DNA from: Microbacterium imperiale
GTDB taxonomy: Bacteria > Actinomycetota > Actinomycetes > Actinomycetales > Microbacteriaceae
Reading direction: 5' to 3'
NCBI RefSeq assembly: GCF_017876655.1
Contig: NZ_JAGIOK010000001.1
Location: 2,976,001 to 3,040,000, forward strand
DNA: 64,000 bases
Both the position numbers and the translations under genes were made by a program. Positions 49,170 to 64,000 of this stretch are shown piece by piece. Within the stretch, counting starts at the first letter, position 1, and each line of letters opens with the position of its first letter. The notes beneath the pieces are model-generated. The model did no database searches. It was not told where the DNA came from and saw nothing but the letters and a program-made list of their open reading frames with translations.

Positions 49170-49180
49170 CGGAAACGGTT

Positions 49181-49257
49181 GTTTCCCGTCATTCCGCGGA
49201 GTTGCGTAGCGTTCCGTTTGGTACGCGTTTCCGGGCTAGAACGTTTCCCGTCATTCC
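49181..49257. repeat. 15-bp direct repeats beside the att junction
   Basis: GTTTCCCGTCATTCC occurs at 49181-49195 and again, identical, at 49243-49257; the second copy is followed by the short inverted repeat CATTCC-gggg-AATG. Paired short repeats 12-90 bases from an att core are typical integrase arm-binding sites. Confidence 0.65.
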
Positions 49258-49346
49258 TGCTCATTCCGGGGAATGTGCGGAGTAAATGCGGAGTAGCGCA
49301 CTAGCGCTCGTTGTTTCTCGCACCGGTGACGGCGCACGCTTGACTG

Positions 49347-50285
49347 ATGGATGAGCTGAGCGAGATCGGCCGGCGCGCGAGCGAAGTCGGGATCCGCATC
49401 CCGGATCAATACCCCACCCACGCCGACGTCGGTCGGGAGTGGTTGTGGTGGCACGTCGAGAAGCGACGTTGGCGACGCGTCGAGCTGCTCGAGGTAGCCG
49501 AGGGCAAGCCGAAGCGCGTGAAGGTACAGCATCTTGATCCGGACATGGCGGCACGGGCCGCTTGGTCGCCGATAGGGCGGTGCAGGATTCCGTGGGATCA
49601 GCGCGACGTTTACATCGAGTCGGTCGATAGCTGGTCGCGCGCTGTGGGCCATCCCTTCGACGATGATGAACGCGACGCGGCGATCGAGGTGTTCCTTGCG
49701 GTCGTGACAGAGGAGATCGCGTTCCTGGGGTACAAGCCGGGTGGCACCCTCGAGCTGAAGGATCCGCAGCGGCTCTCGGCTATGGCTGGTATCGCCGTCG
49801 CGGAGCTCCTCGGGCACCCTGACACCTACCGCGACGCAGACGGATGGCTGATTCCGTGGCCGGTCACGAAGCGGGTCGCGATGTCCCTTGCTCAGCAAGA
49901 TCCGCTTCGATTCGTGCGTGCGATCGCGCACGAGGAGCAGCAGACGCGGCCAGAGATCGAGGCTCTCATCGAGGGCGAGATCGCCGGCGGCCGCGACGAG
50001 CTCAAGTGGATGACGGACGAGGAGAAAGAGGAGGTCGTGCGAAAGTCGTTCGAGAGGACGGCTGGTCGGCGAGCAATCCTCCTGAGTTGGGTCGGTGGTA
50101 CGCGTCCCTCTCTAGGGCAGGAGTACCGGCGGCTGCAGGGGCGGTACCGAGAACTGGCACGGCTTGCTGCAGACGCCGTCCCGGAGTTGCGCTCGAGGCG
50201 GACGCAGACTTCGGCGGCGTTGGCAGACCGTATCGAGTCGGTAGTGACGGCCGGCCAGCGCCTTCCCGATGTCAGCGACGTCTAG
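49347..50285 (+). CDS. Accessory protein next to att, unknown
   Basis: A 312-residue soluble protein rich in charged and aromatic residues (VGREWLWWHVEKRRWRRVELLE). The N-terminal 100 residues look beta-rich and the remainder helical, with an acidic stretch (DEEKEEVVRKSFE). I do not recognise the family. It lies nearest the left end of the element, the usual place for cargo such as defence or superinfection genes, and converges with the small operon 50282-51296. Starting ATG follows TTGACTG with no clear ribosome site. Confidence 0.65.
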   Translation: MDELSEIGRRASEVGIRIPDQYPTHADVGREWLWWHVEKRRWRRVELLEVAEGKPKRVKVQHLDPDMAARAAWSPIGRCRIPWDQRDVYIESVDSWSRAVGHPFDDDERDAAIEVFLAVVTEEIAFLGYKPGGTLELKDPQRLSAMAGIAVAELLGHPDTYRDADGWLIPWPVTKRVAMSLAQQDPLRFVRAIAHEEQQTRPEIEALIEGEIAGGRDELKWMTDEEKEEVVRKSFERTAGRRAILLSWVGGTRPSLGQEYRRLQGRYRELARLAADAVPELRSRRTQTSAALADRIESVVTAGQRLPDVSDV

Positions 50286-50548
50286 GGCGTTCGACCCCTG
50301 GCCCATCGACGTTCCCAACCCTGCCTGGTTGCGGCCGTCCTGGGCGACTGGTGCCACGGGTCAGGGTGAGGCTCGGCCTTCTGGCGGACGCTCTCGAGCA
50401 CTTCGGTAACGATGAAGCGCCACCGGTTGCTGATCTTGAGGGCTGGTATGACTCCGGAGCGCGCCCACCGGTAGATGGTGTCCGGGCTGACCGAAAGCAC
50501 TCGAGACATCTCGAGGACGTCGACTGTCGCTTCGCGCTGGGGATTCAT
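50282..50548 (-). CDS. Helix-turn-helix (excisionase/MerR-like) small protein
   Basis: An 88-residue DNA-binding protein with LEMSRVLSVSPDTIYRWARSGVIPALKISNRWRF (a winged helix of the excisionase type, split here by function: helix pair about 12-30, wing about 31-45) and a basic Pro/Arg-rich tail. Its ATG overlaps the stop of the next upstream gene by ATGA. It is the last gene of a three-gene leftward operon and may regulate it or bind the nearby att. Confidence 0.75.
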   Translation of the reverse strand: MNPQREATVDVLEMSRVLSVSPDTIYRWARSGVIPALKISNRWRFIVTEVLESVRQKAEPHPDPWHQSPRTAATRQGWERRWARGRTP

Positions 50549-51087
50549 GACTCGTCAGGCTGGCCTGAGTCTCCGTGCCAGGTGCGGTGCAGGACGTGAA
50601 GCTGTTTGCTCTTGGTGAGAACGTCCATCCAGTCATCCCGAGCTGGATCGATGCCAGATTCGATCACCCATTCCACGGCTTCCTCGAAGGTCATTCGAGG
50701 CACCGGTCGATGAGCCCTAGCCCCGCCGGCACCTGGTATTGCCATGTGCAGGTGAGGGCGCGTCTCATGGCTGTCGCCCACAGGGTGCCAGTGCATGGCC
50801 CACAGGACCTCGTCAGCGACGCTCAGAGAGTAGATGTACTCCAGGGTCGTGACGCGCCAGCCAGTTTCGTGCGGAACGAACCGGTACTTCATCGCCGCCC
50901 GGAAGCAGTAGCCGCCCGGGAAGACCATCCCAGCGCCTAGGCGGCCGAGATTCCATGCGTGATCCTTATGTACGTTGTACGCACCGCCGTTTGAGAACGT
51001 GATCTTGGCAAGGCCCAGGCAGGCCACCGCCGCTTCGAGTGGCTCGACGAACGCGCGATGGGCTTCCGCAGGCGTTCTTCCGGGCAT
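50545..51087 (-). CDS. Unrecognised 180-residue protein with His-rich motif
   Basis: An unrecognised protein with a centre reading LWAMHWHPVGDSHETRPHLHM; the spaced histidines H-x-H-P...H...H-x-H could bind metal or form a catalytic site. The C-terminus is helical (DWMDVLTKSKQLHVLHRTWH). It overlaps the helix-turn-helix gene by 4 bases and is preceded 8 bases away by a 66-residue gene, so the three probably work together, for example as a toxin-antitoxin or interference module. That role is inference from the arrangement. Confidence 0.65.
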   Translation of the reverse strand: MPGRTPAEAHRAFVEPLEAAVACLGLAKITFSNGGAYNVHKDHAWNLGRLGAGMVFPGGYCFRAAMKYRFVPHETGWRVTTLEYIYSLSVADEVLWAMHWHPVGDSHETRPHLHMAIPGAGGARAHRPVPRMTFEEAVEWVIESGIDPARDDWMDVLTKSKQLHVLHRTWHGDSGQPDES

Positions 51088-51095
51088 TCGGAGTC

Positions 51096-51296
51096 TCAGC
51101 GGGCGAAGGGAGCCAGCGTCACCAAGTGCAGCACGTCGACGTCGTCGCTACCGTTATATGCGCCCTCGTCCACGTTGTGAAGAAACTCATCGAGCGAGAT
51201 GCCGAGGCGGTCACCCACGAGACGCGCCATGGCCTCGCGAGACTCATCCGCGTCCAGCTCCTCGCTAGCCGTCACAGTGATCTCGATGATGCTCAT
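51096..51296 (-). CDS. 66-residue acidic protein, first gene of the three-gene operon
   Basis: A small acidic protein (SIIEITVTASEELDADESR) with a strand followed by helices; no family recognised. The start at 51296 is chosen because AAAGGAGG lies 7 nt upstream, better than the ATG at 51323. Size, acidity and position ahead of a larger gene resemble antitoxins, but nothing proves this. Confidence 0.65.
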   Translation of the reverse strand: MSIIEITVTASEELDADESREAMARLVGDRLGISLDEFLHNVDEGAYNGSDDVDVLHLVTLAPFAR

Positions 51297-51415
51297 GCTT
51301 GCCTCCTTTCTTTCCTCCTGCACAAGATAGTGCGGGGGTCAGACATCTCCCATGGTGCCACAGGTGGGATGGCTGCGGCCTGATCGCGCGACAGCAGAAC
51401 GTACCAATGTCGGCG

Positions 51416-51421: not shown

Positions 51422-51454
51422 GGCAGCTTCTCGGCCGGAGGAAGGATCCCGGCC

Positions 51455-51769
51455 ATGCGATCACCGCTCACCGCCGAGATGCAGTTAGACGTGACTCTCT
51501 CCGCGATCTGCTCTCGCAACCGTTACACGACGGACCCAGCCGCCGTGATCCGCGAGCTCGTCGCGGCGGCGGGGGATCGCGTCGACATCCTCGCTCGGGT
51601 CGCCGGCACGTGGGCTGGTTACTTCGAGACGCGCGAGACGAGCGCGATCGTGACCGCTCTACGCGGCATACCCGGCGCTGACCGGTGGGTAGCGGAGGGG
51701 CGTCGGCGTCGAGGGATACCAACGCACGGTGCGCCCATGAGCAGGGCCGATGTCTCTGCCGGTGGATAG
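51455..51769 (+). CDS. Small accessory protein, unknown
   Basis: A 104-residue soluble protein, mostly helical (DPAAVIRELVAAAGDRVDILARVAG) with a basic Arg-rich turn near residue 83. No family recognised. GGAGGAAGG precedes the ATG. It is followed at a 9-base gap by a lipoprotein gene. Confidence 0.6.
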   Translation: MRSPLTAEMQLDVTLSAICSRNRYTTDPAAVIRELVAAAGDRVDILARVAGTWAGYFETRETSAIVTALRGIPGADRWVAEGRRRRGIPTHGAPMSRADVSAGG

Positions 51770-51772
51770 GCT
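51767..51772 (+). promoter_or_regulatory. -10 element TAGGCT of a leaderless lipoprotein promoter
   Basis: TAGGCT ends 6 nt before ATG 51779, the same geometry as the chromosomal leaderless genes, and overlaps the stop of the preceding gene. Confidence 0.5.
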
Positions 51773-51778
51773 GCGGGC

Positions 51779-52168
51779 ATGAAACGCGCTGAGGCCGTCG
51801 CCGTCGCTCTTACCCTCATCTTGCTTGCGGGATGCTCGAGCACCGGCACGCGTGATGCAGACTCGGTCTCGCCCTCTGCCGCCGTCTCAAGCCCGGCTGC
51901 CAACATTGCACCAAACGACATCGACTCTGTGGAAACTGCGAGCCAATGGGCGCAGGACCTCGACGATTCGGCCATAGGGGCGCAGGTCGCGGAGGGCATC
52001 GAACGGATCCTTCCCCTCGTGCACGAGTCCGGTGTGCCCACGATCGATGCGAACCGGATTAGCCGGGACCTACTCAGCCTGCAGATCGACGTTCTGGATT
52101 CTCCGGATACGGCTACCTCGAGACTGCCCGAACTGATCGGGCTGATCGACGAGCTCGCCGCTAGCTGA
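51779..52168 (+). CDS. Small lipoprotein encoded in the element
   Basis: A 129-residue protein with a signal peptide and lipobox LLAGC (about 15-19), a Ser/Ala-rich tether and a helical domain (ETASQWAQDLDDSAIGAQVAEG). Surface lipoproteins carried by prophages often block superinfection or DNA entry; this is only an analogy. The promoter is leaderless and independent. Confidence 0.75.
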   Translation: MKRAEAVAVALTLILLAGCSSTGTRDADSVSPSAAVSSPAANIAPNDIDSVETASQWAQDLDDSAIGAQVAEGIERILPLVHESGVPTIDANRISRDLLSLQIDVLDSPDTATSRLPELIGLIDELAAS

Positions 52169-52177
52169 GACCAGTCG

Positions 52178-52891
52178 ATGATGACGTCTCAACTAGAGGT
52201 CCTGCACTTTGTCGGCTTATGGTGGCGGATCGAGGGGTTCCCCACCGCGAGCGAATGGCAGGCGGTCGCAGCGGTGTTGACCCTCGTTGTGGCTGCCACT
52301 GCAGCCATCGTCGCACTCAGTCAGCTTCGCCAGGGGCGTCACCAACTGCGTCTGTCCGCAGAGGCGAATCTGCGCGCTGCGGAGGCCGCCGAATCCGAAG
52401 CGAGACCGTACATCTCGGTGCGATTCGATCTGCGGGTCATCCCCGGTGCCCGTCCGAAGGATCCTCGCCACACGGGGGTGCTCTTCGTCGTGATCGAGTG
52501 CGTGGGTCGGACACCGGCGCGCGAAATCTCGCTCACCGTCTCGCCAGCCTTCGAGACGAGCGGGGAAGGACGACCCGGCACCGCCGAGGAGGATCCGGCG
52601 ATGGTCGCGTTGTCGGAGGTCTTCTCGGGTGAACCGGTGATCGGAATGCTGCACCCTGGACAACAGCTCGACTACATTCTCGATTACACCGCCAACGTAG
52701 TCGGTAGCGAGGAGCTTCCCCAGCGGTACGAAGTGACAGCCACCTACTCCGATGCCACTGGCATCCGTCGCTACACCGAGCCACACATCCTTGATCTACG
52801 CCCGTGGCGATTCTCGATCGCGGAACCCACAGCAATCGACGTCATCGCTCGGCAGATGCGCAGGGTGAACGAGAACCTCGAGCGCGGCTGA
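52178..52891 (+). CDS. Membrane-anchored accessory protein, unknown
   Basis: A 237-residue protein with one transmembrane helix near residues 27-47, a short charged coil (RQGRHQLRLSAEANLRAAEAAESEARP) broken here as helix then strand, and a beta-rich domain to the end. The pattern helix-coil-beta domain with conserved PYISVRF is seen in many uncharacterised membrane proteins. It follows the lipoprotein by 9 bases and may be co-transcribed. Confidence 0.65.
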   Translation: MMTSQLEVLHFVGLWWRIEGFPTASEWQAVAAVLTLVVAATAAIVALSQLRQGRHQLRLSAEANLRAAEAAESEARPYISVRFDLRVIPGARPKDPRHTGVLFVVIECVGRTPAREISLTVSPAFETSGEGRPGTAEEDPAMVALSEVFSGEPVIGMLHPGQQLDYILDYTANVVGSEELPQRYEVTATYSDATGIRRYTEPHILDLRPWRFSIAEPTAIDVIARQMRRVNENLERG

Positions 52892-52902: not shown

Positions 52903-53199
52903 CTAGCCGCCGGGCTCCGACTCTGATTCGCTTTCGTGAGTCAGAGACGCTACCAGCGCTTGGATGATGGCTTCAGCTTCTGACCCGAACTCATTTCGAA
53001 GCGCATGGGCAACGTTGCTCACCAACTCTCGTACCACGTTGAGGGTCGGGTCCAACTCCCCGTCACGCCATGGGTCGCTCACCATTTCTTGATACGCAGC
53101 GCGGAAAACGTCGTTCGAGCGGCTCAACGCAGCGGCGACCATACGTGCCGCACGAAGCTCGTCCACTGGCCTGGATCCCGGCTGTCTCGCACCATTCAT
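52903..53199 (-). CDS. Small helical protein downstream of tape measure
   Basis: A 98-residue, mostly helical acidic protein (NVVRELVSNVAHALRNEFG) ending in alternating Ser/Glu. ATG 53199 follows GCGAGGATG and is preferred to an upstream TTG. It is the only leftward gene after the tape measure; in a complete phage distal-tail genes would be expected here. Function unknown. Confidence 0.6.
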   Translation of the reverse strand: MNGARQPGSRPVDELRAARMVAAALSRSNDVFRAAYQEMVSDPWRDGELDPTLNVVRELVSNVAHALRNEFGSEAEAIIQALVASLTHESESESEPGG

Positions 53200-53224: not shown

Positions 53225-55951
53225 TCACACCCGCCGGCCCCCTCTGAATGACGATGTCAAACCGGTCACGGCATCTACTGACGACGCGTCTGCCACGGAT
53301 TTAACCCGTCCGAGCAGGTAGTCACCGGTGAACGGGTTCTCGACATAGACGACGGGGCTGGCAGCCGGCGCGACCGTTTGAATGCCTAGGCGATTCCCCG
53401 CCTCCTGCCAGATCCCGATGTTCCGATCCCGCTGATCCGGCTTCCCCGAGATATATGCCTCCCAGACGGTCTCCGGCTCAGCGAACTTATGGATTGCGGC
53501 TGGTCTGGCGCTGTAAATGCCGGTCTGGACGATGCCGCCATCAGCGAACGCGCGGGAGTGGTCGTAGAGGTTCCCGTTCGCAGACGCGCCAACAATCGCT
53601 CCGAGGCCACCTACGTTCGCACTGAGGGTCACGGTCTTGCCGGATGGTATTGCGTTGATCGCCGCCAGGAACCGCTCAACCCGCTGCTGTGCTGATGCGG
53701 TCTCCCCGATGACCTGAAACTCCTTCTCGGGGGGAATCGCGTAGATCTTGTCAGCAAGGCTCTGCGCTTCCTCGGCGGTGTAACCGAGATCCTGAGCGCG
53801 ACGGATCAGATCCTCACGGCCATTGATGAGCGCCTGGCGGAACTCATCGGTGTTTTGCGACGCGTTGTACTGTGCCTGTGCCGCGTCTTGTGACTTCGAT
53901 GCCAGGTCGACGAGCATGTCGAGGTTGTTGCGGCCCGCTTCGGTCCCCTGATCGAGAGTGATCGAGTAACCTTCCTGCCCCTCACGCGCACGGGCGATCG
54001 TGTCGTCCACGTTCGCCAGGGCGTTCTGGTACTCGATGTTCGAGATGATCGCGTCCTGACCGACCCCGTTCGCTTCGTTGATGGTGTCGATCAGCTGGTT
54101 CAGCTGGTCGTTCAAGCCGCCAGCTTGGTCCGCGGCTTCGAGGTAGGCGTCTGCGGCTGTCTTGGTGACCTCCGCAGCTACCTCTGTGACGCTGTTCTTC
54201 TGCTCGTTAAGGCGTATGGCGTCTTCGATCGATCGGTTCTCGCCGAGCACTGCTTCGGTGAGGACAGTAGACGCGGAGGACACATCGCCCAGGGAGATAC
54301 CGAGACGGTCCGCCATCTCCTGAGCGGCCTCCGTCTGCCCCTCCCCGGCCGCTAGAACCCCCTGCAGTTCCTTGAGCGCATCGACGTTGCCCGTGGCCGC
54401 ATCAGTGACCGTAGTGAGAGAGATGCCGAGCTTCTCCGCTGCGTCGTATGCCGACCCGCGAGAGATCCACAACCACGACTGCTCAGCGGCCAGGTTCTCC
54501 TTTGCGAAGTCTCTAGACGCGTTCGTCAGGTTGTTGGTGCCCTCCTCGAGAGTGTCCGCATAGGCCCGCGCGCGCGCCTGCGCTTCCGCATGCCGCTTAG
54601 CGAGCTCGCCCACGATCGCGAACAGACCCCCGAGAGCAAGGCCGGCAATGCCAGCCCCGGCCGCAACACGGCCGATCGACATGCCCGAAGCATCCAGCGT
54701 GGCCTTCATCTCTAGGAACTTCGGCACGGCCGAGAATGCAGCACCGCCGAAGAGGGTCACGGCCGCAGTGCCACCAGCGACGGCGAGCACCGCATCCTGT
54801 ACCGGCTCGGGAAGGTCGTTGTAGACGTCGATGAGGCCGGTGATCGACTGCACCAACCCGCGCAGCGTGTCATTTGCGGCAGCACCGGTCTGAATGAGCG
54901 CAGCGTCCATCGCCCCGCTCAGCGCTTCAAGATCGCCGTTCAGGTTGTCGAGGCGGTCACGCGCCGTTGCCGCCGCATACCCGCTGTCATCCACGGCTGC
55001 GGTCCATTCCTGAACACCCTTCGCGCCGGCACGGTACAGCGCGGTCGCCGCCGTCACAGTTTCCCGCCCGAAGATGATGCCCAGAGAAGCGTCTCGCGAG
55101 GCGCCATCCATGTTGGAGTAAGCCCCTGACAGTTGCTGTGCGGCATTCTCGAGACCTAGGAAGTTGCCCTGCGAGTCGTACAGAGTCAGACCCAGCCGCT
55201 CAATCTCCTTCCGCGCCTGAGACGACGGAGACGTCAGCGACGAGAGGACGCCACGAAGCGACGTACCCGCTTGCTCGCCGATGATGCCCTGCTGCGCGAA
55301 CAGCGCCAGGACACCCGTCGTCTCTTCGAGCGAGACACCCATCGACGCGGCCACCGGACCCACGAACTTCAGACCGTTAGCGAGATCGTCGACGGAACCC
55401 ATAGCCTTGCCAGCACCCGCAGCCAGGACATCGGCGACGTGAGCCGCGTCGTCCCCCGACAGACCGAATTGGTTCAGCGCGGTGGATGTGACCTCAGCTG
55501 CACGTGCCACGTCCAGCTCACCCGCCGCTGCCAGATCCAGAGCCCCCGCCAGCCCACCCGCCAGGATGTCCGCCGTAGAAACACCGGCCTTCGCCAACTC
55601 CTCGATAGCCCCAGCCGCCTCCTCAGCGGAATACACCGTCGAGGATCCAGCATCGATTGCCGCGTCCCGCAGAAGATCCATGTTCGCGGAGGTCTCGTGC
55701 GTCGCCGCCTTAACGTTCGACATCGCCGCATCGAAGTCGGCGAACCGCTTCACCGCCACGGCCACACCAGCAGCCATGAGACCGCCCGCCACCATGCCGG
55801 CGCGCCCCAGAGCATCGAATGACTCGCGCGCCTGCGCCAGCTTCTCGGCCTCCGAGCCCACCTTCCGGGTCGACTGGGCCGCTTCCTGCATCGCCTTGTT
55901 GTACTCAGCGACCTTCACGCTGAGCCGTACCGCGACTGTCCGCTCAGCCAT
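53225..55951 (-). CDS. Phage tail tape measure protein (TP901 family)
   Basis: A 908-residue tape measure protein, which sets siphophage tail length and helps DNA entry. The N-terminal segment is a coiled coil (VAEYNKAMQEAAQSTRKVGS). The TP901 core (about 65-340) reads FDAAMSNVKAATHETSANM, then LDLAAAGELDVARAAEVTS and FAQQGIIGEQAGTSLRGVLSS. A hydrophobic segment (about 415-440) follows. At roughly 0.15 nm per residue it would give a tail of about 136 nm. The start at 55951 (MAERTVAV) overlaps the chaperone-like gene by 8 bases. No other tail structural gene follows. Confidence 0.93.
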   Translation of the reverse strand: MAERTVAVRLSVKVAEYNKAMQEAAQSTRKVGSEAEKLAQARESFDALGRAGMVAGGLMAAGVAVAVKRFADFDAAMSNVKAATHETSANMDLLRDAAIDAGSSTVYSAEEAAGAIEELAKAGVSTADILAGGLAGALDLAAAGELDVARAAEVTSTALNQFGLSGDDAAHVADVLAAGAGKAMGSVDDLANGLKFVGPVAASMGVSLEETTGVLALFAQQGIIGEQAGTSLRGVLSSLTSPSSQARKEIERLGLTLYDSQGNFLGLENAAQQLSGAYSNMDGASRDASLGIIFGRETVTAATALYRAGAKGVQEWTAAVDDSGYAAATARDRLDNLNGDLEALSGAMDAALIQTGAAANDTLRGLVQSITGLIDVYNDLPEPVQDAVLAVAGGTAAVTLFGGAAFSAVPKFLEMKATLDASGMSIGRVAAGAGIAGLALGGLFAIVGELAKRHAEAQARARAYADTLEEGTNNLTNASRDFAKENLAAEQSWLWISRGSAYDAAEKLGISLTTVTDAATGNVDALKELQGVLAAGEGQTEAAQEMADRLGISLGDVSSASTVLTEAVLGENRSIEDAIRLNEQKNSVTEVAAEVTKTAADAYLEAADQAGGLNDQLNQLIDTINEANGVGQDAIISNIEYQNALANVDDTIARAREGQEGYSITLDQGTEAGRNNLDMLVDLASKSQDAAQAQYNASQNTDEFRQALINGREDLIRRAQDLGYTAEEAQSLADKIYAIPPEKEFQVIGETASAQQRVERFLAAINAIPSGKTVTLSANVGGLGAIVGASANGNLYDHSRAFADGGIVQTGIYSARPAAIHKFAEPETVWEAYISGKPDQRDRNIGIWQEAGNRLGIQTVAPAASPVVYVENPFTGDYLLGRVKSVADASSVDAVTGLTSSFRGGRRV

Positions 55952-56902: not shown

Positions 56903-57556
56903 TCATGCCGCCCCCGACTCGCCCCACATCTGCCCCTCGTTGGGCTGTTCCTCTGCGGCGATGCGCTCGAGCGTGGCGTCGGTGTGCCGTCCCAGTTCCT
57001 GCGGCTTCATGAGGCTGTACGCCGAGGTTGCGTTGAACTGAACGTCGGGGTCGGTCTGGAAGTGGACGACGTCTGCAAGATCCTTGAGGGTGCCGGCCAC
57101 GTCGGGGTTGTCCGCGTTATACTGGCTGATGACGCGATCCCAGCCGGCGCTGAGTGCGCGGCTGATGAGGGCTGTCTGCAAGGTGGTGTCTCCGGCGAGC
57201 TTGGCCGTGTGCATCATGTTGAGGGCCTTGGCCTGGTCCTTCTCGGTGAGCGCCGATGCCCGGTCCTGCGCGTCGCGGTAGGCGATGATTGCGCTCGGGT
57301 CGTTGCTGAACTGGCCGAACATCTTCCGCTCTAGCTCGGCGCGGGTGTTCTCCAGTGCTTCTCGTTCCTGACGGTCGAGGTCGCGGAGTGTGCGGCTTGC
57401 GGAGAGGTAGCGTTTCGCGAGCTCGGCGTTCTTACCGGTGCTCGACAGTCGCTCATCCGCGCGGATGCTCGCGACCCATTCGCGGTGGTTTGCTTGAGTC
57501 GCGGCTGCGGTGTCGCGGAGCTTGTTGAGCTTGTTGTTGAGCGAGCTGAGTGCCAT
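56903..57556 (-). CDS. Helical phage protein, unknown
   Basis: A 217-residue helical protein (LRDLDRQEREALENTRAELE) with a probable coiled coil at about 15-90. The start at 57556 (MALSSLNNK) follows GAAGGAGAA; upstream codons of the same frame are not protein-like. No family recognised. It is the last gene before the long inverted repeat. Confidence 0.7.
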   Translation of the reverse strand: MALSSLNNKLNKLRDTAAATQANHREWVASIRADERLSSTGKNAELAKRYLSASRTLRDLDRQEREALENTRAELERKMFGQFSNDPSAIIAYRDAQDRASALTEKDQAKALNMMHTAKLAGDTTLQTALISRALSAGWDRVISQYNADNPDVAGTLKDLADVVHFQTDPDVQFNATSAYSLMKPQELGRHTDATLERIAAEEQPNEGQMWGESGAA

Positions 57557-57569: not shown

Positions 57570-57941
57570 TCAGGTGCTGCGGTTGCCTGCGATGTAGCTG
57601 CGTGCGTCGTCGTCTCGGATGAGCCAGGTTGGGTTCTTGATTGCGGGTAGTCGTCCTTCCTGGCAATCGAGTCGGACGGTGCGTTCTGCGCGTCTCGTGG
57701 CTCGCGACACTTGCCTGACCGTCCAGTAATCACGCTCCTCTGATGCCGTGTCTCGCCGCGATTCTTTGCCACGGTCGGCAGGCGAGTGGAAAGCGCAGAT
57801 CGACATCTCCGTGAGGATCTGTCCGAGGCGTGTGGTGCTGCCGGCTCGCGCTCGGTTCTCGCGGATGCGCAAAGGGCCGTAGATGATGCGCATGTCCGCC
57901 GGGGAGAGGATGATCGAGCCCTCTTCGATGCGTTGGGTCAT
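57570..57941 (-). CDS. Small DNA-binding protein, helix-turn-helix
   Basis: A 123-residue protein whose C-terminal half DYWTVRQVSRATRRAERTV is a helix-turn-helix of the excisionase/MerR type with wing KNPTWLIRDDDARSYI. The N-terminal part is of unknown fold. ATG 57941 overlaps the stop of the next upstream gene (ATGA), so they are coupled. Confidence 0.65.
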   Translation of the reverse strand: MTQRIEEGSIILSPADMRIIYGPLRIRENRARAGSTTRLGQILTEMSICAFHSPADRGKESRRDTASEERDYWTVRQVSRATRRAERTVRLDCQEGRLPAIKNPTWLIRDDDARSYIAGNRST

Positions 57942-58177
57942 CGGCCCTCGCTGTTCATGGGCTCGGTGATGATGACGAGCACGCGATCTCCTCGCACCTG
58001 GAGGAACACTTGCCAGCCTTCGACCGCGAACCAGGCGAGGTCGCGAACCGCTGTTGTGGCGAGGAAAGGCGTTCGGTAGCGCCACTGCTTGAGTCCATCG
58101 CGCAGCGTCTGTGTCTCGTCTCGTGCCCAGGGGGTTTCGGTGATGCCGTGCTCAGCGAGGAATGAGAGCGGGTTCAT
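57938..58177 (-). CDS. 79-residue protein, unknown
   Basis: A small protein with a helical start (PLSFLAEHGITETPWARDE) and a beta hairpin (VFLQVRGDRVLVIITEP). ATG preceded by GGAGAA. It is coupled to the helix-turn-helix gene and follows the WhiB-like gene by 30 bases. Confidence 0.65.
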   Translation of the reverse strand: MNPLSFLAEHGITETPWARDETQTLRDGLKQWRYRTPFLATTAVRDLAWFAVEGWQVFLQVRGDRVLVIITEPMNSEGR

Positions 58178-58207: not shown

Positions 58208-58474
58208 TCAGTCAGCGGCTTCGTGCGCCTGTCTGCGGGGTTTGTAGACGCTCCCTGCCCAGACACCCGCGGGCGGCTTAGCGGCCTTCCCGTACGAGGC
58301 GCAGAGGGCGTAGAGAGGGCAGCGGCGGCAGACGGCGCGTAGTTCGCTGAGCTCGTTCGGCTGATAGTCGATTGCGTCGCGGATGAATCGCGGATCGTCG
58401 GCGCACCTGGGAGGGTGATGCTCGATCGCTACGTTCAGACGGCGGTACTCGTCCGCTCCGCGCTTTTCCTTCAC
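58208..58474 (-). CDS. WhiB-like protein of the element
   Basis: An 88-residue WhiB-like protein. Four cysteines are arranged PPRCADD, then CRRCPLYALC, the Fe-S cluster ligands of the family, followed by the GVWAG turn and a basic tail. WhiB proteins bind RNA polymerase sigma region 4 and alter transcription; phage copies can repress host whiB2 and block superinfection. GTG start overlaps the stop of the upstream helix-turn-helix gene. Confidence 0.92.
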   Translation of the reverse strand: MKEKRGADEYRRLNVAIEHHPPRCADDPRFIRDAIDYQPNELSELRAVCRRCPLYALCASYGKAAKPPAGVWAGSVYKPRRQAHEAAD

Positions 58475-58668
58475 GGGGTGCTTCGGGGGTTACGCGGATA
58501 CGGTGTGAGTGACGCGAGTAACTTGCTTTGGTCGACTCGGAGGAGTTTTGGGCCGAACCGTCTTCCGACGATCAGCCGGTCTCGGATCCGTCGTCGAACG
58601 GTGTTGGCCGATACGCCGAGTAGTGCTGCAGCCTGCTCAATCGAGATCCAGCCTTCGGGAATCTGCAC
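58471..58668 (-). CDS. 65-residue AlpA/excisionase-like DNA-binding protein
   Basis: Short protein with the helix-turn-helix WISIEQAAALLGVSANTVRRR and a basic tail. GTG 58668 follows AAGGAGAT, so the longer upstream frame through the terminator is rejected. It is translationally coupled to the WhiB-like gene (GTGA) and probably controls the module. Confidence 0.7.
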   Translation of the reverse strand: MQIPEGWISIEQAAALLGVSANTVRRRIRDRLIVGRRFGPKLLRVDQSKLLASLTPYPRNPRSTP

Positions 58669-58770
58669 GTTGATCTCCTTGTCCGGGAAACACAAAACCC
58701 CCGGCCAGGCAGGCACGGGGGAGGGATGGGTGTTGTAGGTGGCTGGCACATGCGCCAGTAAACGGGCACG

Positions 58771-58801
58771 AAAAAACCCACCGGGTGTATCCCAGTGGGT
58801 T
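58771..58801 (-). terminator. Intrinsic terminator, leftward
   Basis: On the minus strand AACCCACTGGG pairs with CCCGGTGGGTT (one G-U pair), loop of 5, followed by TTTT. It lies between the helix-turn-helix/WhiB operon's upstream region and the gene ending at 59263. Confidence 0.8.
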
Positions 58802-59046
58802 GAGGTGTTGCTGTAGCGGAAGCGTATCAGCCAGTTGTCTCGTTGTCTCGATATATGCGACTCACAGTCTCGAGGCACAACTGTTCCAAGCGGCTACTAC
58901 GTTACTCCTGTGCTCCGACACTCGCTGACGCGGCGGCTGGTGTGTCGAGATCCCACCGCGAGTGGGCATGCTGAACCGAGGCACGAACAACGTTATCAGC
59001 GGCAACCGATGTGGCCGCGTGCGAGGGGCGCGTGTCCCGGAAAAGG

Positions 59047-59262: not shown

Positions 59263-60186
59263 CTAGGAGAACGCCGCTTCGACGGCTCGGGTCACCGCGG
59301 CATCGTCACGCTTCTTTTCGGCCGTCTCTCGGGACGTGAGAGCGCCTTGGCTGGGTGTGGTGTCGGAACCGACGGGCAGGAGTGAGCGTGCGGGCTGCTC
59401 GGGGATCTCGGGCAGTGTGCCGTCGATCAGTTCGGCGTGACCGTCGCGGACCGTGCGTGCGAGGTTCGTTGGGTTGATCTCGCGACTTGTGAGGATGTGG
59501 CCGGCGGGCTTGCCGCCGAGGGGCCGGGTGAGCTTGACGCGCACGATATGCGCTCGCTCGCTGTCTCGCTGGTCAAGGCGCGTGAGCGTCGCGGGGTCGA
59601 GAAGCTGTGAGCGTGCGTCTCGTGTGTGCGGGTTGACGGCGTGGGCGACGTAAGCGGCGGGGGTCCGCAGTGCGGAGATGTGATTGCCGCCAATGGTCAG
59701 GGTGGTGCCGGCCGTTGCTGAGGTGTAGATCTTCACCTCTTCGTCGCCGATAGTGAGGCCCTGGTCAGGCACGCCGAGATCGCGCAGCTTGTTGACCCAA
59801 CCGAGGATCGCGGCGTTGCGCTTGTTGTTGACTTCTCGGATGTTCTGCAGAGCGGTGTCGAGCTGCGCAAATGCTGCGGTCAGGTCGTCGGCCTTGAGCG
59901 CCGAATCGCCCATGAGCGCGGTGATTGCTGTGTGGATGTCAGGGTCGGGAGCGAGGCTCTTTCGTTCCCGGTCTGCTGCGGCGTGTACGGCGTCGGAGCG
60001 GAGCTTGGCGAGGTCGTAGTCGGCCTGGACGTTTTTGAGGTCGCGTCCGCTCATCTGCCCGGTTAGCGCCGCCTGCTGAGCGTTCTCGAGCTGTGTCGCG
60101 GCAGCGCTGAGTTCTTCGGCTGCGGTGGCTGCCGCGAGGGTCTTCGGGGTCTCGATCGTGATGGTCGGGGTCTTTGCCTTCGTCAT
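59263..60186 (-). CDS. Phage protein of unknown function, 307 residues
   Basis: Residues 1-130 are helical and Ala/Gln-rich, probably a coiled coil (TAAEELSAAATQLENAQQAA). Residues 150-260 look beta-rich, including HIVRVKLTRPLGGKP. The C-terminus is charged and helical. No family recognised. The start at 60186 follows GAAAGGA; the frame upstream passes through the tRNA-Arg and is not used. A single-strand or coat-accessory role is possible but unsupported. Confidence 0.7.
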   Translation of the reverse strand: MTKAKTPTITIETPKTLAAATAAEELSAAATQLENAQQAALTGQMSGRDLKNVQADYDLAKLRSDAVHAAADRERKSLAPDPDIHTAITALMGDSALKADDLTAAFAQLDTALQNIREVNNKRNAAILGWVNKLRDLGVPDQGLTIGDEEVKIYTSATAGTTLTIGGNHISALRTPAAYVAHAVNPHTRDARSQLLDPATLTRLDQRDSERAHIVRVKLTRPLGGKPAGHILTSREINPTNLARTVRDGHAELIDGTLPEIPEQPARSLLPVGSDTTPSQGALTSRETAEKKRDDAAVTRAVEAAFS

Positions 60187-60215
60187 CGTGTTTCCTTTCA
60201 TCGGTTGGTCTTGCG

Positions 60216-60287
60216 TCCCCCAGGCAGGATTCGAACCTGCGGCCGGCCGTTTAGAAAGCGGATGCTCTTCCACTGAGCTACTGAGGG
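60216..60287 (-). tRNA. tRNA-Arg (anticodon TCT), element-borne
   Basis: Acceptor CCCTCAG with CTGGGGG (one G-U), D arm GCTC/GAGC, T arm GCAGG-TTCGAAT-CCTGC and anticodon loop TTTCTAA giving TCT (reads AGA). The anticodon stem is weak: only three central pairs form, with mismatches at 27-43 and 31-39. No CCA is encoded. It sits between two leftward protein genes and may supply a codon rare in the host. Confidence 0.75.
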
Positions 60288-60357: not shown

Positions 60358-61209
60358 TTAGAAGTTGCTGCCTACGGGCAGTTCGAGCTGCCACGGTCTG
60401 ACGTCGCAGTGTTTGCACGTGTTGTCGGGAAGTAGATCGTGGTTGCCTTCTTCGCAGTCGCGCGCGTGCTGCTGGTCTTGTGCGGCCAGTCGTGCAACGA
60501 GCGCCATGTTCTCGTCGTCGCGGCTTCGGGGCTTTGGTGCGTGGAGACGGGGGATGGGTAGGTCATCGTTCCAACGCTCTTGACGTAGCCACGGAGCGAG
60601 ACCCGGAACGAAGTGGATCTCGGTGACGCTGAGTGCGTAGGCCTGTCCGAACCGCTCGATGTCGTGAGCTAGATCTTTGGCTGAGCGACGCTTCGCTGCC
60701 CTGCTGAATACCTCGCGCGCGACCTTCTTCGCGTCCTTCTTGGGCCACGACTTCCACGCCTGTTCGAAGAGTTCATCCTCCTGTCGAAGTTGTTCCTGCT
60801 GGTCTCTCCTAGGAGTTGGCACCTTCAGGGGTGCCAAGTTATCCCCAGAGTTGGCACCCTCAGGGGTGCCATTTACCTGTGCATAAGTTGGCACCCTAAT
60901 GGCCCGTGTAGGTGCCAACTTTGGGGGCGGGTTTGGCGTGAAATACTCGGGCAGTACGCGGTAGTTCGCGGCCTTCCCGCGGCCTGATTCGAACGTCACA
61001 AGGCGCTGCGATGACAGCCGCTCGAGAGCTACGCGTGTGGACTTCCGCGACAGTCCCGCCTGGTCCGCGATGTCGGTCTGAGTGACGCCTGAGACGATCG
61101 AGTCTTCGCCTGCGAGCGCGATCAGGACGACGATGACCCTGAGATCACCGCCGGCCAGCTTCGCCCGGGCAAGTGCTCCGTTCGTGACGAATTGCTTCGG
61201 AAACCGCAT
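60358..61209 (-). CDS. Replication-initiation-like protein with winged helix and internal iterons
   Basis: A 283-residue protein. The N-terminal winged helix (about 20-85) reads SGVTQTDIADQAGLSRKSTRV and RLVTFESGRGKAANYRV. A disordered middle (about 90-135) is encoded by the iterons at 60814-60918. The helical centre includes EQAWKSWPKKDAKKVAREV, a pattern of phage O/DnaD-like primosomal proteins. The C-terminus has cysteine pairs (DCEEGN, TCKHC) that may bind zinc. A gene containing its own origin resembles lambda O. Confidence 0.75.
   Translation of the reverse strand: MRFPKQFVTNGALARAKLAGGDLRVIVVLIALAGEDSIVSGVTQTDIADQAGLSRKSTRVALERLSSQRLVTFESGRGKAANYRVLPEYFTPNPPPKLAPTRAIRVPTYAQVNGTPEGANSGDNLAPLKVPTPRRDQQEQLRQEDELFEQAWKSWPKKDAKKVAREVFSRAAKRRSAKDLAHDIERFGQAYALSVTEIHFVPGLAPWLRQERWNDDLPIPRLHAPKPRSRDDENMALVARLAAQDQQHARDCEEGNHDLLPDNTCKHCDVRPWQLELPVGSNF
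60814..60920. repeat. Iteron cluster, candidate replication origin
   Basis: Three TTGGCACC half-sites (60816-60823, 60851-60858, 60888-60895) alternate with three inverted GGTGCCA half-sites (60830, 60865, 60911), making two palindromes with 6-bp centres and one with a 15-bp centre. A DnaA-box-like TTATCCCCA lies at 60839-60847. The cluster is inside the replication-protein gene, where lambdoid and satellite origins are often found. Confidence 0.75.
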
Positions 61210-61338: not shown

Positions 61339-61656
61339 TTACGCCGGGAGGGACGCGTGCCACTGGGTGAGCGCGTCATCTATCTGGTCGACGATGGATC
61401 GGAGGTCTCGCAGCTCTTCCTGGATCCGATGGCCTAGGTCTGCGGAGGTAGCGGCTTGGATGCGCCATTCCAGCTCATCGAGTAGGACCACCCAGCCCTG
61501 CCCGGGCCGCTGATCGGCCCAGACGCGGACTGAGCTCGCTCCCGCGCGTGCCGTGACGATCTCGCCGTAGTGCCCTTCCTCTTCGGCTGTGTGCTCACGG
61601 TCGGTCTCGACGCACCACGAGTAGGTGGCGCATCCGCTGGTGTTGGTGGCTGTCAT
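61339..61656 (-). CDS. 105-residue protein, unknown
   Basis: Starts MTATNTSGCATYSWCVETD; the first 60 residues look beta-rich (VRVWADQRPGQGWVVLLDE) and the end helical. Similar short proteins are frequent in actinophage early regions. It overlaps the upstream gene by ATGA and is the last of a four-gene overlapping set (62937-61339). Confidence 0.7.
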   Translation of the reverse strand: MTATNTSGCATYSWCVETDREHTAEEEGHYGEIVTARAGASSVRVWADQRPGQGWVVLLDELEWRIQAATSADLGHRIQEELRDLRSIVDQIDDALTQWHASLPA

Positions 61657-61922
61657 GCCGCATCCCGCCTCTCCGAAAGGGCCTCTTTGATTGCGGCGGG
61701 CACCATCTCGGGAAGGTCGTGCAGCGTCCGCTCTACGGCGGCACGTTGCAGGTCTAGGACGCGCCACGCGTCCCGGGCCGCTGCGGTGAGCGATTCGAGC
61801 CGGTAGAACTCGTCGAGCGCCGCTGCGGTCAGATCAGCGAGTCGATCTGCGTCCGCTTCGAGCGCGAGACGGATCGGCATGGTTGAGACGAGAGGCGGTG
61901 CGGGGAGGTCGATGATGCTCAC
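61653..61922 (-). CDS. 89-residue helical protein, unknown
   Basis: Highly helical (ADADRLADLTAAALDEFYRL). GTG start overlapping the upstream stop (GTGA). No motif recognised. Likely an early-region regulator or accessory protein by position only. Confidence 0.65.
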   Translation of the reverse strand: MSIIDLPAPPLVSTMPIRLALEADADRLADLTAAALDEFYRLESLTAAARDAWRVLDLQRAAVERTLHDLPEMVPAAIKEALSERRDAA

Positions 61923-62482
61923 GCCGCGACCTCCGCTTCTGTCTCGTAACCGCACAGCCACCGGAACGCGCTTGCGATCGTGCCTTCATGGGCGACATAC
62001 CCGAGCGGGTCGATCAGCTGCATGTGGTCGCCGCGTGCCCGTACTCGGAGGTCACTCTTTCCGGCCCAATTGCGGAGCTTGGGGATCGAGCGGCGGTGGC
62101 CGATCTCGTCGGGCGCGAGCTGAACGAGCAGGTGTCGTTTCTCGTCGGAGAGGACTACCTGCCAGGTGCCCAGGGACACCCGCAGAGTGACCGTCTCCTC
62201 GCCTGTGAGCGCCCACCGCCACGTAGCCACGTTGATCGTGCTCACCCGGGGAAGCGGCGTCACGTTGACCCGATACTCAAGCGACGGCGATTGCTTGTAG
62301 TCCATGCTGTGGATCTCGTCGATGTAGACGCGCTCCCCGTTGGGGATGACGTTGCGGCAGTCGAGGACGAGCGTCGCGTGCCCCATAGTGTGCAACGTGT
62401 CTTGCGCGGTCTCCATGAGGGTCGCCCGCTGGTTGATGACGTCTTGTACGGCCGTCAGGGCGGCACTGAGTGCCGGGGTCAC
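61919..62482 (-). CDS. 187-residue protein, unknown
   Basis: Mixed alpha/beta protein with a helical start (ALSAALTAVQDVINQRAT) and a beta-rich body including ETVTLRVSLGTWQVVLSDEK. GTG start overlaps the upstream stop. No family recognised; longer upstream reading rejected because it lies in the preceding gene. Confidence 0.7.
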   Translation of the reverse strand: MTPALSAALTAVQDVINQRATLMETAQDTLHTMGHATLVLDCRNVIPNGERVYIDEIHSMDYKQSPSLEYRVNVTPLPRVSTINVATWRWALTGEETVTLRVSLGTWQVVLSDEKRHLLVQLAPDEIGHRRSIPKLRNWAGKSDLRVRARGDHMQLIDPLGYVAHEGTIASAFRWLCGYETEAEVAA

Positions 62483-62937
62483 TTCTGGTCCGCCTTGAGC
62501 ATCGCGGCGACGTCTTCGAGGCGCCACAGCATGTACCCGGTGATGTTCGAGACGATGTGCGGGGCCTTGAAGAGATCAGCCACATTCATGCCGGGGAAAG
62601 CGTCCGAGACGGCTTCCATGCTGACGTACCCCTCGCAACGCTGCAGTAGTTTCTCAGCCGCTTTCAGGTCCGCGGTGAACTTGCCGACGCTCTCGAGGTC
62701 CGCGAAAAACTCACGGGTGTCCAACTCGATGAACCATCCCTGGTTCGTTGCGTTGCCGGGGGTCACTTCCTTCCGCACGGCGATGTCGTAGCAAACTGCC
62801 TCGTGGAAGTCGCGGTTGACGGTGACGCGGTACGCCTCGTGGTAGTCGTCAGGCTCGTGTACCTGCCCGAACTCGACGCAAAGCGTCTCGGTGCAGGTGG
62901 TCATCTGGCGTGCGGGTGCGTTCTGTGTCATACTCAT
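62479..62937 (-). CDS. 152-residue protein, unknown
   Basis: First gene of the four-gene overlapping set. The N-terminal half is beta-rich with several cysteines (TTCTETLCVEFGQ, EAVCYDIAV), the C-terminal half helical (EDVAAMLKADQK). Start at 62937 with AAAGGA upstream; an ATG at 62931 is also possible. No family recognised. Confidence 0.7.
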   Translation of the reverse strand: MSMTQNAPARQMTTCTETLCVEFGQVHEPDDYHEAYRVTVNRDFHEAVCYDIAVRKEVTPGNATNQGWFIELDTREFFADLESVGKFTADLKAAEKLLQRCEGYVSMEAVSDAFPGMNVADLFKAPHIVSNITGYMLWRLEDVAAMLKADQK

Positions 62938-62977
62938 GACAGATCGGTCCTTTCGTAGTGGTTGGGGGCGATTCTGA

Positions 62978-63002
62978 AACCCGGCCGGCCAGCCGGGTTT
63001 TT
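62978..63002. terminator. Hairpin between the regulatory genes and the early set
   Basis: AACCCGGC pairs with GCCGGGTT (62978-62985 with 62992-62999), 6-nt loop, T-run on both strands (TTTTT rightward, TTT leftward). It would limit leftward transcription from the regulatory genes. Confidence 0.6.
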
Positions 63003-63082
63003 CCCTTTGTGGGGAGCGTTCGAGGACGATGTCTCGGTAGTGACGAGATATCGTGTGCGGGTCGTTTCGGGCGGGGCGTGGG

Positions 63083-63397
63083 TCAAGCGATCACCCACCG
63101 GGTCGATCGGCGTCCGTGCTTCGATCGGCCAGGCTCAGCGCCTGCACGCACGAGTCCGCGATGCACGAGTTCGGCTGTGCGGGTGCGGATCGACTGATCC
63201 GTCGCAAACGGCACGCTCTCGGTCGTCGCTGCCCGCTTGCCGTAGGCGTCGATCAACTCGTCGTGCGTCATTGCACCGTGCTCGGTGAGAAGAGACACGA
63301 TGATGGCATGGACTCGGGCCAGCGTTGCCGGATGCTGCGAGGCTGACGCTTCGATCGAGTAGCCGTCGAGGACTGCGGCGCGCGCTCGGGACGTCAT
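63083..63397 (-). CDS. 104-residue winged-helix-like protein
   Basis: Starts MTSRARAAVLDGYSIEASAS and contains a probable winged helix (VHAIIVSLLTEHGAMTHDE, then TRTAELVHRGLVRAGAEP) like MarR or replication-initiator folds. A basic tail follows. Start at 63397 is 3 bases after the stop of the excisionase-like gene; both form a short operon that is probably first expressed after induction. Confidence 0.65.
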   Translation of the reverse strand: MTSRARAAVLDGYSIEASASQHPATLARVHAIIVSLLTEHGAMTHDELIDAYGKRAATTESVPFATDQSIRTRTAELVHRGLVRAGAEPGRSKHGRRSTRWVIA

Positions 63398-63399
63398 GC

Positions 63400-63621
63400 T
63401 TAGGCTGCCTTTTCGAGCCAGGCGAGCACGTCCTCGCGGCGGTATCTGACGTTGCGCTTGCCCACGCGGGTGACCTTCGGCCCGTCGTGAACCATCGCCC
63501 ACTTTGCCAGTGTGCTGACGCTGACCTGTGTGAACGCGGCCACCTGTGCGCGGGTCGCGATGGGGGGAAGCTCTGCCGGTTCGGTGTCGGCGGGGCGGGT
63601 TGCGGTGTCGAGGATGGACAT
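63400..63621 (-). CDS. Excisionase/AlpA-like small DNA-binding protein
   Basis: A 73-residue protein with helix-turn-helix ATRAQVAAFTQVSVSTLAKWA and wing PKVTRVGKRNVRYRREDV, typical of excisionase/AlpA proteins. It is divergent from the XRE repressor and read from the operator-like region at 63635-63666, so it should be the first gene induced. It may direct excision or activate the leftward genes. Confidence 0.8.
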   Translation of the reverse strand: MSILDTATRPADTEPAELPPIATRAQVAAFTQVSVSTLAKWAMVHDGPKVTRVGKRNVRYRREDVLAWLEKAA

Positions 63622-63634
63622 CTGTGGCCTTTCA

Positions 63635-63666
63635 GATCTGCACTGAAACTACTTTCTATGCAGATC
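63635..63666. promoter_or_regulatory. Operator-like inverted repeat in the divergent region
   Basis: GATCTGCA (63635-63642) and TGCAGATC (63659-63666) are perfect inverted repeats with a 16-bp centre, 14 bases from the start of the excisionase-like gene and 80 from that of the repressor. This is the expected place and form of a repressor operator. Confidence 0.55.
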
Positions 63667-63746
63667 GTAGATCGTTCCGTCTCGTTCCGCAAGAATGAAA
63701 GCGGAGTGTCCTCATATCTGGGAGCGGTTTGTGGGAGAATCAAGGT

Positions 63747-64000
63747 ATGACGACTGACCGAACTGAGCTGCTGGACATCCGCTACGGCGAGCGGCTGCGC
63801 GCCCTCCGCGAGCAGAAGGGCATGACTCAGGCTGAGCTTGTCGACCGGCTCAAGGCGGCGGGTGTCGGGTACATGAATGCCTCGACGCTGTCCCGGATCG
63901 AAGCCGGTACACGCCCGGTTCGGCTGGTTGAGGCGCAGTTCATCGGGCACATCTTCGCTGTCAGCCTCGAGAGCATGATGTCTGAGCTTGAAGCCCTGTC
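63747..64000 (+). CDS. XRE-family repressor-like protein, 5' part
   Basis: The first 84 codons are in the window and the gene runs off the right edge. The helix-turn-helix domain reads RYGERLRALREQKGMTQAELVDRL then NASTLSRIEAG (positions about 12-52), typical of XRE/Cro-C1 repressors. It is divergent from the excisionase-like gene. In satellites and prophages the next gene in the same direction is usually the integrase. ATG 63747 follows CAAGGT. Confidence 0.85.
   Translation, partial: MTTDRTELLDIRYGERLRALREQKGMTQAELVDRLKAAGVGYMNASTLSRIEAGTRPVRLVEAQFIGHIFAVSLESMMSELEAL

Follow-up and report, generated by a model that had tools for sequence, protein, structure and literature searches.

An integrated element in Microbacterium imperiale

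We analysed a stretch of 64,000 nucleotides (the window; positions 2976001-3040000 of contig C1) from the 3.17 Mb, two-contig genome of Microbacterium imperiale. It holds most of an integrated element that encodes a tape measure protein (TMP) and a tail assembly chaperone, and that is very probably an intact satellite belonging to a large actinobacterial family. The complete element is 16.4 kb long and both of its ends were located. A perfect 49-bp repeat bounds it. The left attachment (att) site (49121-49169, plus strand) has the 5' half of tRNA-Thr as its core and is followed directly by position 49170; the right copy (65519-65567), beyond the window, overlaps the 5' half of an intact tRNA-Thr(TGT) gene (65527-65600, tRNA search). 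The original prediction read the region as a phage satellite and named capsid, portal and terminase genes just past 64 kb as evidence to the contrary, but none lies there. Instead, an integrase and the right att site, which it had suggested looking for, follow directly beyond the XRE gene: nothing precedes that site but the remainder of the XRE gene, the gene of a tyrosine integrase (64347-65450; Pfam PF00589, 4.8e-22) and the 5' part of tRNA-Thr. An integrase of this type and a specific att site, often in a tRNA gene, are features of phage-inducible chromosomal islands (PICIs). At 63.5%, the G+C content of the element is below the 69.7% of the host sequence in the window.

Genes were named with Pfam on all 26 predicted open reading frames (ORFs) of the element and with PHROGs on ten of them. 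These searches recognised the TMP, a replication initiator, a WhiB-like protein, three HTH_17 proteins, an XRE protein and the integrase. Neither they nor hidden Markov models (HMMs) of related prophages, run on six-frame ORFs, detected a portal, capsid, terminase, major tail or baseplate gene, so that the absence claimed for the window extends to the whole 16.4 kb. That is, the element lacks the capsid, portal and terminase that define capsid-forming PICIs (cf-PICIs), and the HMMs recognised no small terminase (TerS) or scaffold gene in it either. The TMP gene (53225-55951, minus strand; PF10145, 6.4e-50, and PHROGs) encodes a mosaic protein of 908 amino acids with a phage-like C terminus and has no internal stop. 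Its start is overlapped by the stop of the chaperone gene (55944-56432, minus strand; 162 aa), which is of the G type only and has no T extension.

The predicted leftward order of xis-like gene, small genes, rep gene with repeats, tRNA, WhiB-like gene, inverted repeat, chaperone, TMP, accessory genes and att site was borne out by Pfam, PHROGs, tRNA and repeat searches. The xis-like HTH_17 gene (63400-63621, minus strand; Pfam 1.6e-8) faces the XRE repressor gene (63747-64304, plus strand; Pfam and gene calls), which had been noted as divergent and runs past the window end, with 63747-64000 inside it. The arrangement of the two genes is Stl-like. As in PICI-type elements, there is a replication initiator gene (60358-61209, minus strand; phrog_270, 6.8e-20) with three iteron-like direct repeats inside it (60813-60902, at 60813-60836, 60848-60871 and 60886-60902), which are likely the origin, a role that is predicted. 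Two further genes, g569 (56903-57556, minus strand), the hallmark gene, and g575 (57570-57941, minus strand), which encodes a small conserved protein, are treated below with their relatives.

Actinomycete integrative elements, too, have integrase, xis, rep and WhiB-like genes. The locus might accordingly be an integrative element moved by conjugation, of the kind of actinomycete integrative and conjugative elements (AICEs), that acquired phage tail genes by chance. AICE-type conjugative elements use an FtsK/Tra translocase, and no FtsK/Tra domain was matched by Pfam among the 26 ORFs. Moreover, kin of the element carry TerS and scaffold genes, and g569 matched just one of 72,556 plasmid records. 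We regard a conjugative origin as highly improbable.

The remaining genes of the element are mostly small. Five early genes lie between the xis-like and rep genes (61339-61656, 61653-61922, 61919-62482, 62479-62937 and 63083-63397, all minus strand, gene calls). The element's own tRNA-Arg (TCT) gene (60215-60287, minus strand, tRNA search) sits between rep and the gene of a conserved satellite protein, c64 (59263-60186, minus strand; 307 aa), which stands directly before the chaperone or the TMP in the related loci (L numbers) L040, L086 and L097. Further left on the minus strand follow an ORF with an HTH_17 domain (58471-58878; Pfam 9.8e-7), dropped by one gene caller, the WhiB-like regulator (58208-58474; Pfam 4.3e-7) and a 79-aa gene without a named family (57938-58177; Pfam, gene calls). 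Between g569 and the chaperone lie a long hairpin (56763-56867; 48-nt arms, 9-nt loop; inverted repeat search) and a 71-aa gene (56419-56634, minus strand) with a relative in satellite L055. The hairpin, which adjoins g569, has no second copy in the host genome, an 84% identical counterpart in L180 (9931-10035), an element without recognised TMP, and a 21-nt piece in common with the sequence directly upstream of the chaperone in L042. Candidate roles are those of a terminator, a packaging site or another.

Beyond the TMP, an 87-aa gene (52903-53166, minus strand; gene calls, Pfam) is followed by three accessory genes (51455-52891, plus strand; 104, 129 and 237 aa), the first of which is related to genes in satellites L037 and L040, and by genes of 66 aa (51096-51296, minus strand; gene calls, Pfam) and 180 aa (50545-51087, minus strand; ORF calls, Pfam, PHROGs); no family was named for any of them. 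Next to the left att site stand an HTH_17 gene (50282-50548, minus strand; 88 aa, Pfam 3.9e-11) and a 312-aa accessory gene without Pfam family (49347-50285, plus strand), whose cluster, c63, has relatives in three other satellite-labelled loci (L046, L068 and L130). A search for defence genes in this accessory region returned a weak HTH match only.

Related elements and prophages

A TMP search of 247 genomes of the genus (E <= 1e-60, with stretches of up to 20 kb examined) gave matches at 32 places in 27 genomes, none with an internal stop in the matched part. Two kinds of loci were found. In ten genomes (11 loci), portal, capsid and major tail genes precede the TMP as in a prophage. The second kind is free of head genes and occurs in 16 genomes, in 15 of them with an integrase upstream of the TMP, and in two contig-end pieces; the two kinds occur together in one genome. 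Satellite-type elements are present in 18 of the 247 genomes, two of the 18 being counted from the contig-end pieces. One piece, L061, has its TMP split into two ORFs.

A scan of named genomes with a TMP alignment yielded 121 relatives, from which 80 loci were retained. The deduplicated set comprised 94 loci, of which 39 are prophages, 53 are satellite-labelled (including L142, a phage by its tail genes after the TMP) and two are undecided; L060, L061, L062, L063, L095, L099, L109, L113 and L130 are short or cut at a contig end, and the absence of head genes says less there. A search for the same gene set in other Microbacteriaceae had been suggested. Of the 94 loci, 41, all among the 53, show no head marker and have a related TMP with an integrase upstream of it. 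Among the named hosts of satellite-labelled loci are Microbacterium, Agreia, Herbiconiux, Curtobacterium, Frigoribacterium, Agromyces, Paenarthrobacter, Klenkia and Cellulosimicrobium. Repeats of at least 17 bp connect the integrase end with the region beyond the TMP in 29 of the 41 elements (one letter shuffle each gave at most 15), and 20 of these 29 att-like repeats lie within 60 nt of a tRNA gene. In seven of the 12 elements without repeat, the sequence breaks off at the integrase or shortly past the TMP. The spans bounded by repeats fall at 10.07-10.92 kb (8 elements), 13.0-14.3 kb (4) and 14.9-16.9 kb (17), the upper limit being set partly by the length of the fetched stretches. The gene g569 occurs in 11 of 21 longer elements versus none of eight short ones (Fisher p 0.012).

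Gene clusters separated the two kinds of loci. Counted as satellite versus prophage loci, the xis cluster (cluster 6) occurred in 25 and 0, g569 in 19 (of 53) and 0 (of 39), g575 in 17 and 0, the primase in 12 and 0 and the integrase in 43 and 3; with an HMM, g575 was found in 29 of 53 satellite-labelled loci and in none of 39 prophages. HMMs on six-frame ORFs detected the portal in 23 of 39 prophages, the major tail protein in 28 and the connector in 27, and none of the three in any of the 53 satellite-labelled loci. The neck protein was found in 28 of the 39 and in two of the 53, one of them L142. For TerS the counts were 2/39 and 13/53, for the scaffold 12/39 and 4/53. The statement that packaging genes are missing thus stands for the element in the window and fails for its family. 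Common to prophage and satellite loci are the TMP, partly the chaperone family and, in few loci, TerS, scaffold, neck or integrase. PHROGs searches with 150 of 166 satellite cluster representatives of at least 95 aa (nine already labelled and seven short ones were left out) listed 25 of 135 families, which were replication proteins, regulators and one without a name, a listing that could miss lone head-gene matches.

The alternative raised at the outset was a decayed prophage, that is, a siphophage whose head and most tail genes were deleted. For the satellites as a group, decay is unlikely because they share genes that are absent from the related prophages (xis, g569, g575 and the primase) and because their TMPs show low ratios of nonsynonymous to synonymous substitution (dN/dS). 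Between satellites, the TMP ratio ranged from 0.046 to 0.266 (8 of 20 pairs listed), rough values, as dS is often near or above 1. Listed pairs of chaperone, g569, integrase and primase gave 0.05-0.24, equally rough with dS often about 1 or above. The simple deletion of a related prophage is contradicted by the same genes. A decayed prophage also conflicts with purifying selection in kin (dN/dS well below 1), the perfect att repeats, the intact integrase, the lack of any head-gene match in the element, the open TMP and the dozens of similar elements that share non-prophage modules and similar sizes. The satellite reading is in turn supported by the completeness of the element, the recurrence of similar elements and the genes found in satellites only.

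The protein g569 was modelled as all-helical (pLDDT, a model confidence score, 91.9). Profiles, PDB, BFVD and VIA-align gave no recognised fold or sequence relative. As a known virion or scaffold protein it was rejected: 28 other profiles reached at most 3.7% probability, the best PDB sequence had an E value of 0.27 and the best BFVD entry one of 0.25, and the VIA-align rows were generic helical bundles. With the g569 profile, matches were obtained in 26 of the 247 genomes of the genus and in 8 of 396 from the whole phylum. The single window sequence matched none of 50,697 phage records and, as noted above, one plasmid record, in searches that would miss distant members. Among 26 stretches at further g569 matches, two carry a TMP of the window family (L185, L203), four carry other TMPs (L181, L186, L190, L191) and one carries a tail-fibre gene (L182); the rest showed no tail gene with our own profiles, PHROGs being applied to ten large ORFs only and L204 being cut at a contig end. 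Since the tail genes around it vary, g569 is the mark of a wider family, whose tail genes seem optional and exchangeable. In L182, a 535-aa ORF (8718-10325) matches both the g569 and the c64 profiles; it is perhaps a fusion of the two, hinting that both act together. Elements with g569 and no recognised TMP (L183, L188, L189, L192, L193, L195, L198, L199 and L200) often hold a gene of about 460-490 aa, which by eye resembles a large serine recombinase at its N-terminus in L183, L188, L189, L192 and L193.

In IMG/VR, 85 stretches with g569 or the TMP comprised 73 phages, five satellites and seven undecided cases. A search with the g569 alignment found five IMG/VR loci. Terminal repeats indicating circles were found on none of the 85, many of which are parts of contigs. 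One contig (L212, 1-11321) holds a primase, g575, g569, an ORF like the large terminase (TerL) and a TMP, and is possibly a satellite with a large terminase of its own. Some satellites carry tail-fibre, tail-spike-like or lipase/fibre-like genes (L182 10646-12193, L068 12934-14580, L088 13228-14583), as if tail parts other than the TMP were customised there as well. Near the far end of two satellites we observed OLD/Gabija-like AAA ATPase genes (L065 13184-14869; L131 16810-20118, which may be outside the element). In one genome (G011), two TMP-bearing prophages (L047 and L048) lie about 44 kb from each other and have the same TMP score.

Tape measure and chaperone

The median TMP length is 924 aa in satellites and 958 aa in prophages, against 908 aa in the window. 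These similar lengths do not bear out the altered tail length that had been expected of the particles. A tree of 93 TMP N-terminal parts interleaved satellites and prophages (29 label changes versus a shuffled mean of 29.3, with at least 21 changes forced by well-supported branches) and placed the window TMP in an unresolved group with the satellite-labelled fragment L063 and prophage L035. This interleaving, together with the nearness of its N-terminal half to that of L035 (72-91% over residues 76-375) and the split TMP of L061, is what a decayed prophage would have in its favour. For the 32 loci with the chaperone family, labels were clustered on both chaperone and TMP trees (2 changes versus a shuffled mean of about 10.7), and a single satellite clade was compatible with the chaperone (p 0.25) and rejected for the TMP (p 1.5e-5; with a long-branch warning for L056). 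The window chaperone groups with satellite L069 (99/92), not with the chaperone of L035, whereas the window TMP groups with prophage L035 (99/92). Given this and the evidence from the family, we consider prophage decay very unlikely.

Several comparisons indicate exchange of the TMP. L036 and L056 have primases that are 91% identical and very different TMPs, and satellites carry at least three TMP types. Within the window TMP, identity to P0002, which with P0003 is nearest to it, is 85-92% over residues 76-375 and 68-84% up to residue 750, then falls to 49% (751-825) and 16% (826-900). Residues 760-908 instead match best to the IMG/VR phages L222 (57% over 149 residues) and L276 (51% over 150) among 334 proteins, a set of mostly TMPs from which two entries of the window itself were left out; the middle parts of these two phage TMPs are only 20-37% identical to that of the window. 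A search with residues 755-908 returned 118 proteins, including PF20155-type TMPs, without P0002 or P0003, and part of the C terminus is a stretch common to many phage TMPs. Among phage isolates, Footloose had the best-ranked match to the TMP (48% over 74%). For phage TP901-1, contact between the TMP C terminus and the tail-tip initiator Dit/Tal has been proposed (PMC5099701). Taken together with the C-terminal mosaic, this proposal suggests that the end docking to the tip is exchanged separately from the TMP body. The swap perhaps fits a helper of the L222/L276 kind.

The label of tail chaperone was upheld by profile, synteny and fold evidence, not by a family library: PHROGs gave no match, a protein search returned the protein itself only, and the profile found nothing useful among PDB sequences (best E 0.083). 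The protein is homologous to the chaperones of the prophages. The best PDB match to its model is the structure of the PLE1 chaperone, 5ir0, and the best fold match among phages is the chaperone of Microbacterium phage Footloose, whose annotation has G and a joined longer chaperone product with the same start. In all 18 prophages with the chaperone family, 357-1690 nt separate the chaperone stop from the TMP start. Of 14 satellites, 13 have the two in overlap or contact (-11 to -1 nt), and L042 has a gap of 293 nt (L063, with its family member after the TMP, was omitted). An ORF in the -1 frame overlaps the chaperone end and continues 278-431 nt past it in 18/18 prophages, only two of which have an extension of at least 278 nt in the +1 frame. 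Among the satellites, the -1 frame reaches at most 53 nt beyond the chaperone in ten of 14, lies inside the TMP gene in L038 and L065, and is the TMP itself in L056 and L068. Where satellites lack the window chaperone family, the small genes that precede the TMP (c95, c96, c108, c156, c174 and c224) could be linked to neither of the chaperone profiles.

In phage lambda, G coats the TMP, and GT binds the tube protein through its T part (PMC5009743). Satellites that bring G and a TMP without T must therefore use helper GT for tube recruitment or else disturb helper assembly. The latter would mean that the pair of a T-less G-type chaperone and a TMP with the core domain of phage TMPs mainly interferes, titrating helper tail initiators or TMP and blocking helper virions, with the satellite itself packaged with ordinary helper tails. 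A chaperone without T would indeed upset the G:GT balance that lambda requires (PMC5009743), and tail assembly is a known target of defence (PMC11364771, PMC10884400). However, a TMP of about 900 aa, which takes up about a quarter of each 10-kb element and is kept at a dN/dS of 0.05-0.27, would be a costly decoy, the C terminus of the window TMP resembles those of phages, and the TMPs of PLE satellites are incorporated and required for transduction (PMC12987554). We therefore consider mere interference unlikely.

Proposed chimeric tails, possible helpers and known systems

We think it likely that the satellite contributes its own TMP and T-less chaperone to helper tails and so makes them chimeric. 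Infection by a helper siphophage, or its induction, would lead to excision and replication of the element, whose DNA would be packaged into heads built of helper proteins. The satellite chaperone would coat the satellite TMP, which would seed on the helper tail tip via its C terminus. Without a T domain of its own, the satellite chaperone would then depend on helper GT to recruit helper tube subunits, and the product would be a tail with helper tube, tip and fibres around the satellite TMP. More tentatively, the dedicated T-less chaperone may be retained while the TMP, mainly its C terminus, is swapped between phage lineages. Exchangeable TMP or tail-fibre genes would thereby track changing helpers, and helper GT would be the shared factor enabling chimeric tails, in an actinobacterial family so far undescribed.

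The host genome contains a siphophage-type prophage at about 855-880 kb of C1 (L293 and L294, extent approximate). We came upon it through a weak second TMP match (E 7e-4) in a 1143-aa ORF. Profiles matched TerL (2.3e-48), portal (1.5e-58), major capsid (4.2e-54) and integrase (7.8e-81), with phage-like genes between them. The portal families PF05133 and PF04860 had no match in the host genome, a false negative, as the prophage portal was found by our own profiles. The 1143-aa TMP of this prophage is of another family, its best relative (46% identical) being the TMP of satellite L181; what it has in common with the window TMP is limited to 55 residues (42%), which reach up to 73% in other phage TMPs. 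This prophage is a possible helper, nothing singles it out, and it leaves the likelihood of chimeric tails unchanged. Elsewhere in the host, further genes lie right of tRNA-Thr, including a SelR-domain gene and, by eye, an ORF resembling GroEL. There an HTH gene overlaps a short, weak protein-kinase-like ORF (L003 2606-3506, window numbering 65606-66506); these are perhaps relics of another island at the same site. The host flank also has an Rfam match to a guanidine-II riboswitch (34 bits, gathering threshold 32; L003 17515-17561).

Satellites are well known for remodelling helper heads and packaging. PICIs, including the Staphylococcus aureus pathogenicity islands (SaPIs), have a divergent repressor beside the integrase, xis, rep with repeats, a size of about 15-16 kb, a tRNA att site and accessory genes at the far att. 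They have no capsid, portal or large terminase of their own, carry a gene that redirects packaging or the capsid (TerS, Cpm, Ccm and others) and are induced and transferred by a helper phage. The element shares layout, size and tRNA att site with them, and some of its kin have TerS or scaffold-like genes; it differs in the conserved g569, which has no recognised relative. We know of no classical PICI with a tail ruler. In SaPI1 virions, TMP and DNA have been resolved (PMC11661146), and a 16.8-kb Pseudomonas satellite without structural genes has been described (PMC4936722). With cf-PICIs, the element has in common some virion genes of its own and the reliance on helper tails proposed here, whereas cf-PICIs encode the capsid, portal and terminase (PMC10690885) that we did not find in it. 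MulchRoom and MiniFlayer of Streptomyces are likewise actinobacterial satellites of siphophages, but they encode terminase, portal and capsid, and 'tape measure' does not occur in the text of PMC10690885. Nor does it occur in that of PMC10023795, where satellites are suspected among small actinobacterial prophages. Footloose, L222 and L276 resemble the element in TMP matches (L222 and L276 for the C terminus) and, for Footloose, in the chaperone fold; they differ as phages with TerL, portal and capsid, and Footloose has a frameshifted chaperone pair.

Literature searches on satellites, tape measures, chimeric tails, Microbacterium and actinobacteria, judged by title and start of abstract and with subscription papers and preprints mostly outside their coverage, returned no description of this family and no report of a T-less chaperone or of TMP swapping in such satellites. 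The closest known system is that of the PICI-like elements (PLEs) of Vibrio cholerae. In PLE11, PLE1 and PLE4, TMP and chaperone make chimeric tails, and deletion of tmp lowers transduction by 96-99.9% (PMC12987554, Nature 2026); putative tmp genes have been noted in PLE-like elements and a cf-PICI sampling (Extended Data Fig. 10 legend of the same paper). Like the PLEs, which use them with helper tail parts, our element encodes a TMP and a tail assembly chaperone, and among PDB structures its chaperone model matches that of the PLE1 chaperone best. In contrast, the PLE helper ICP1 has a contractile tail, whereas here a PF10145 siphophage-type TMP is found in an actinobacterial host, and PLE11 encodes a baseplate hub, none being recognised in our element. 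Satellite tails made with an own TMP and chaperone are thus already known from the PLEs; new here would be the actinobacterial family, the T-less chaperone and the swapping of the TMP. The family suggests that a PLE-type tail strategy exists in another lineage, one that has TMPs of the siphophage type, in Microbacterium and other genera. Its missing T domain makes a sharp prediction on how helper tube protein comes to surround the TMP of a satellite. The size groups that seem to exist bear on helper choice and head size, as does the exchange of the TMP C terminus.

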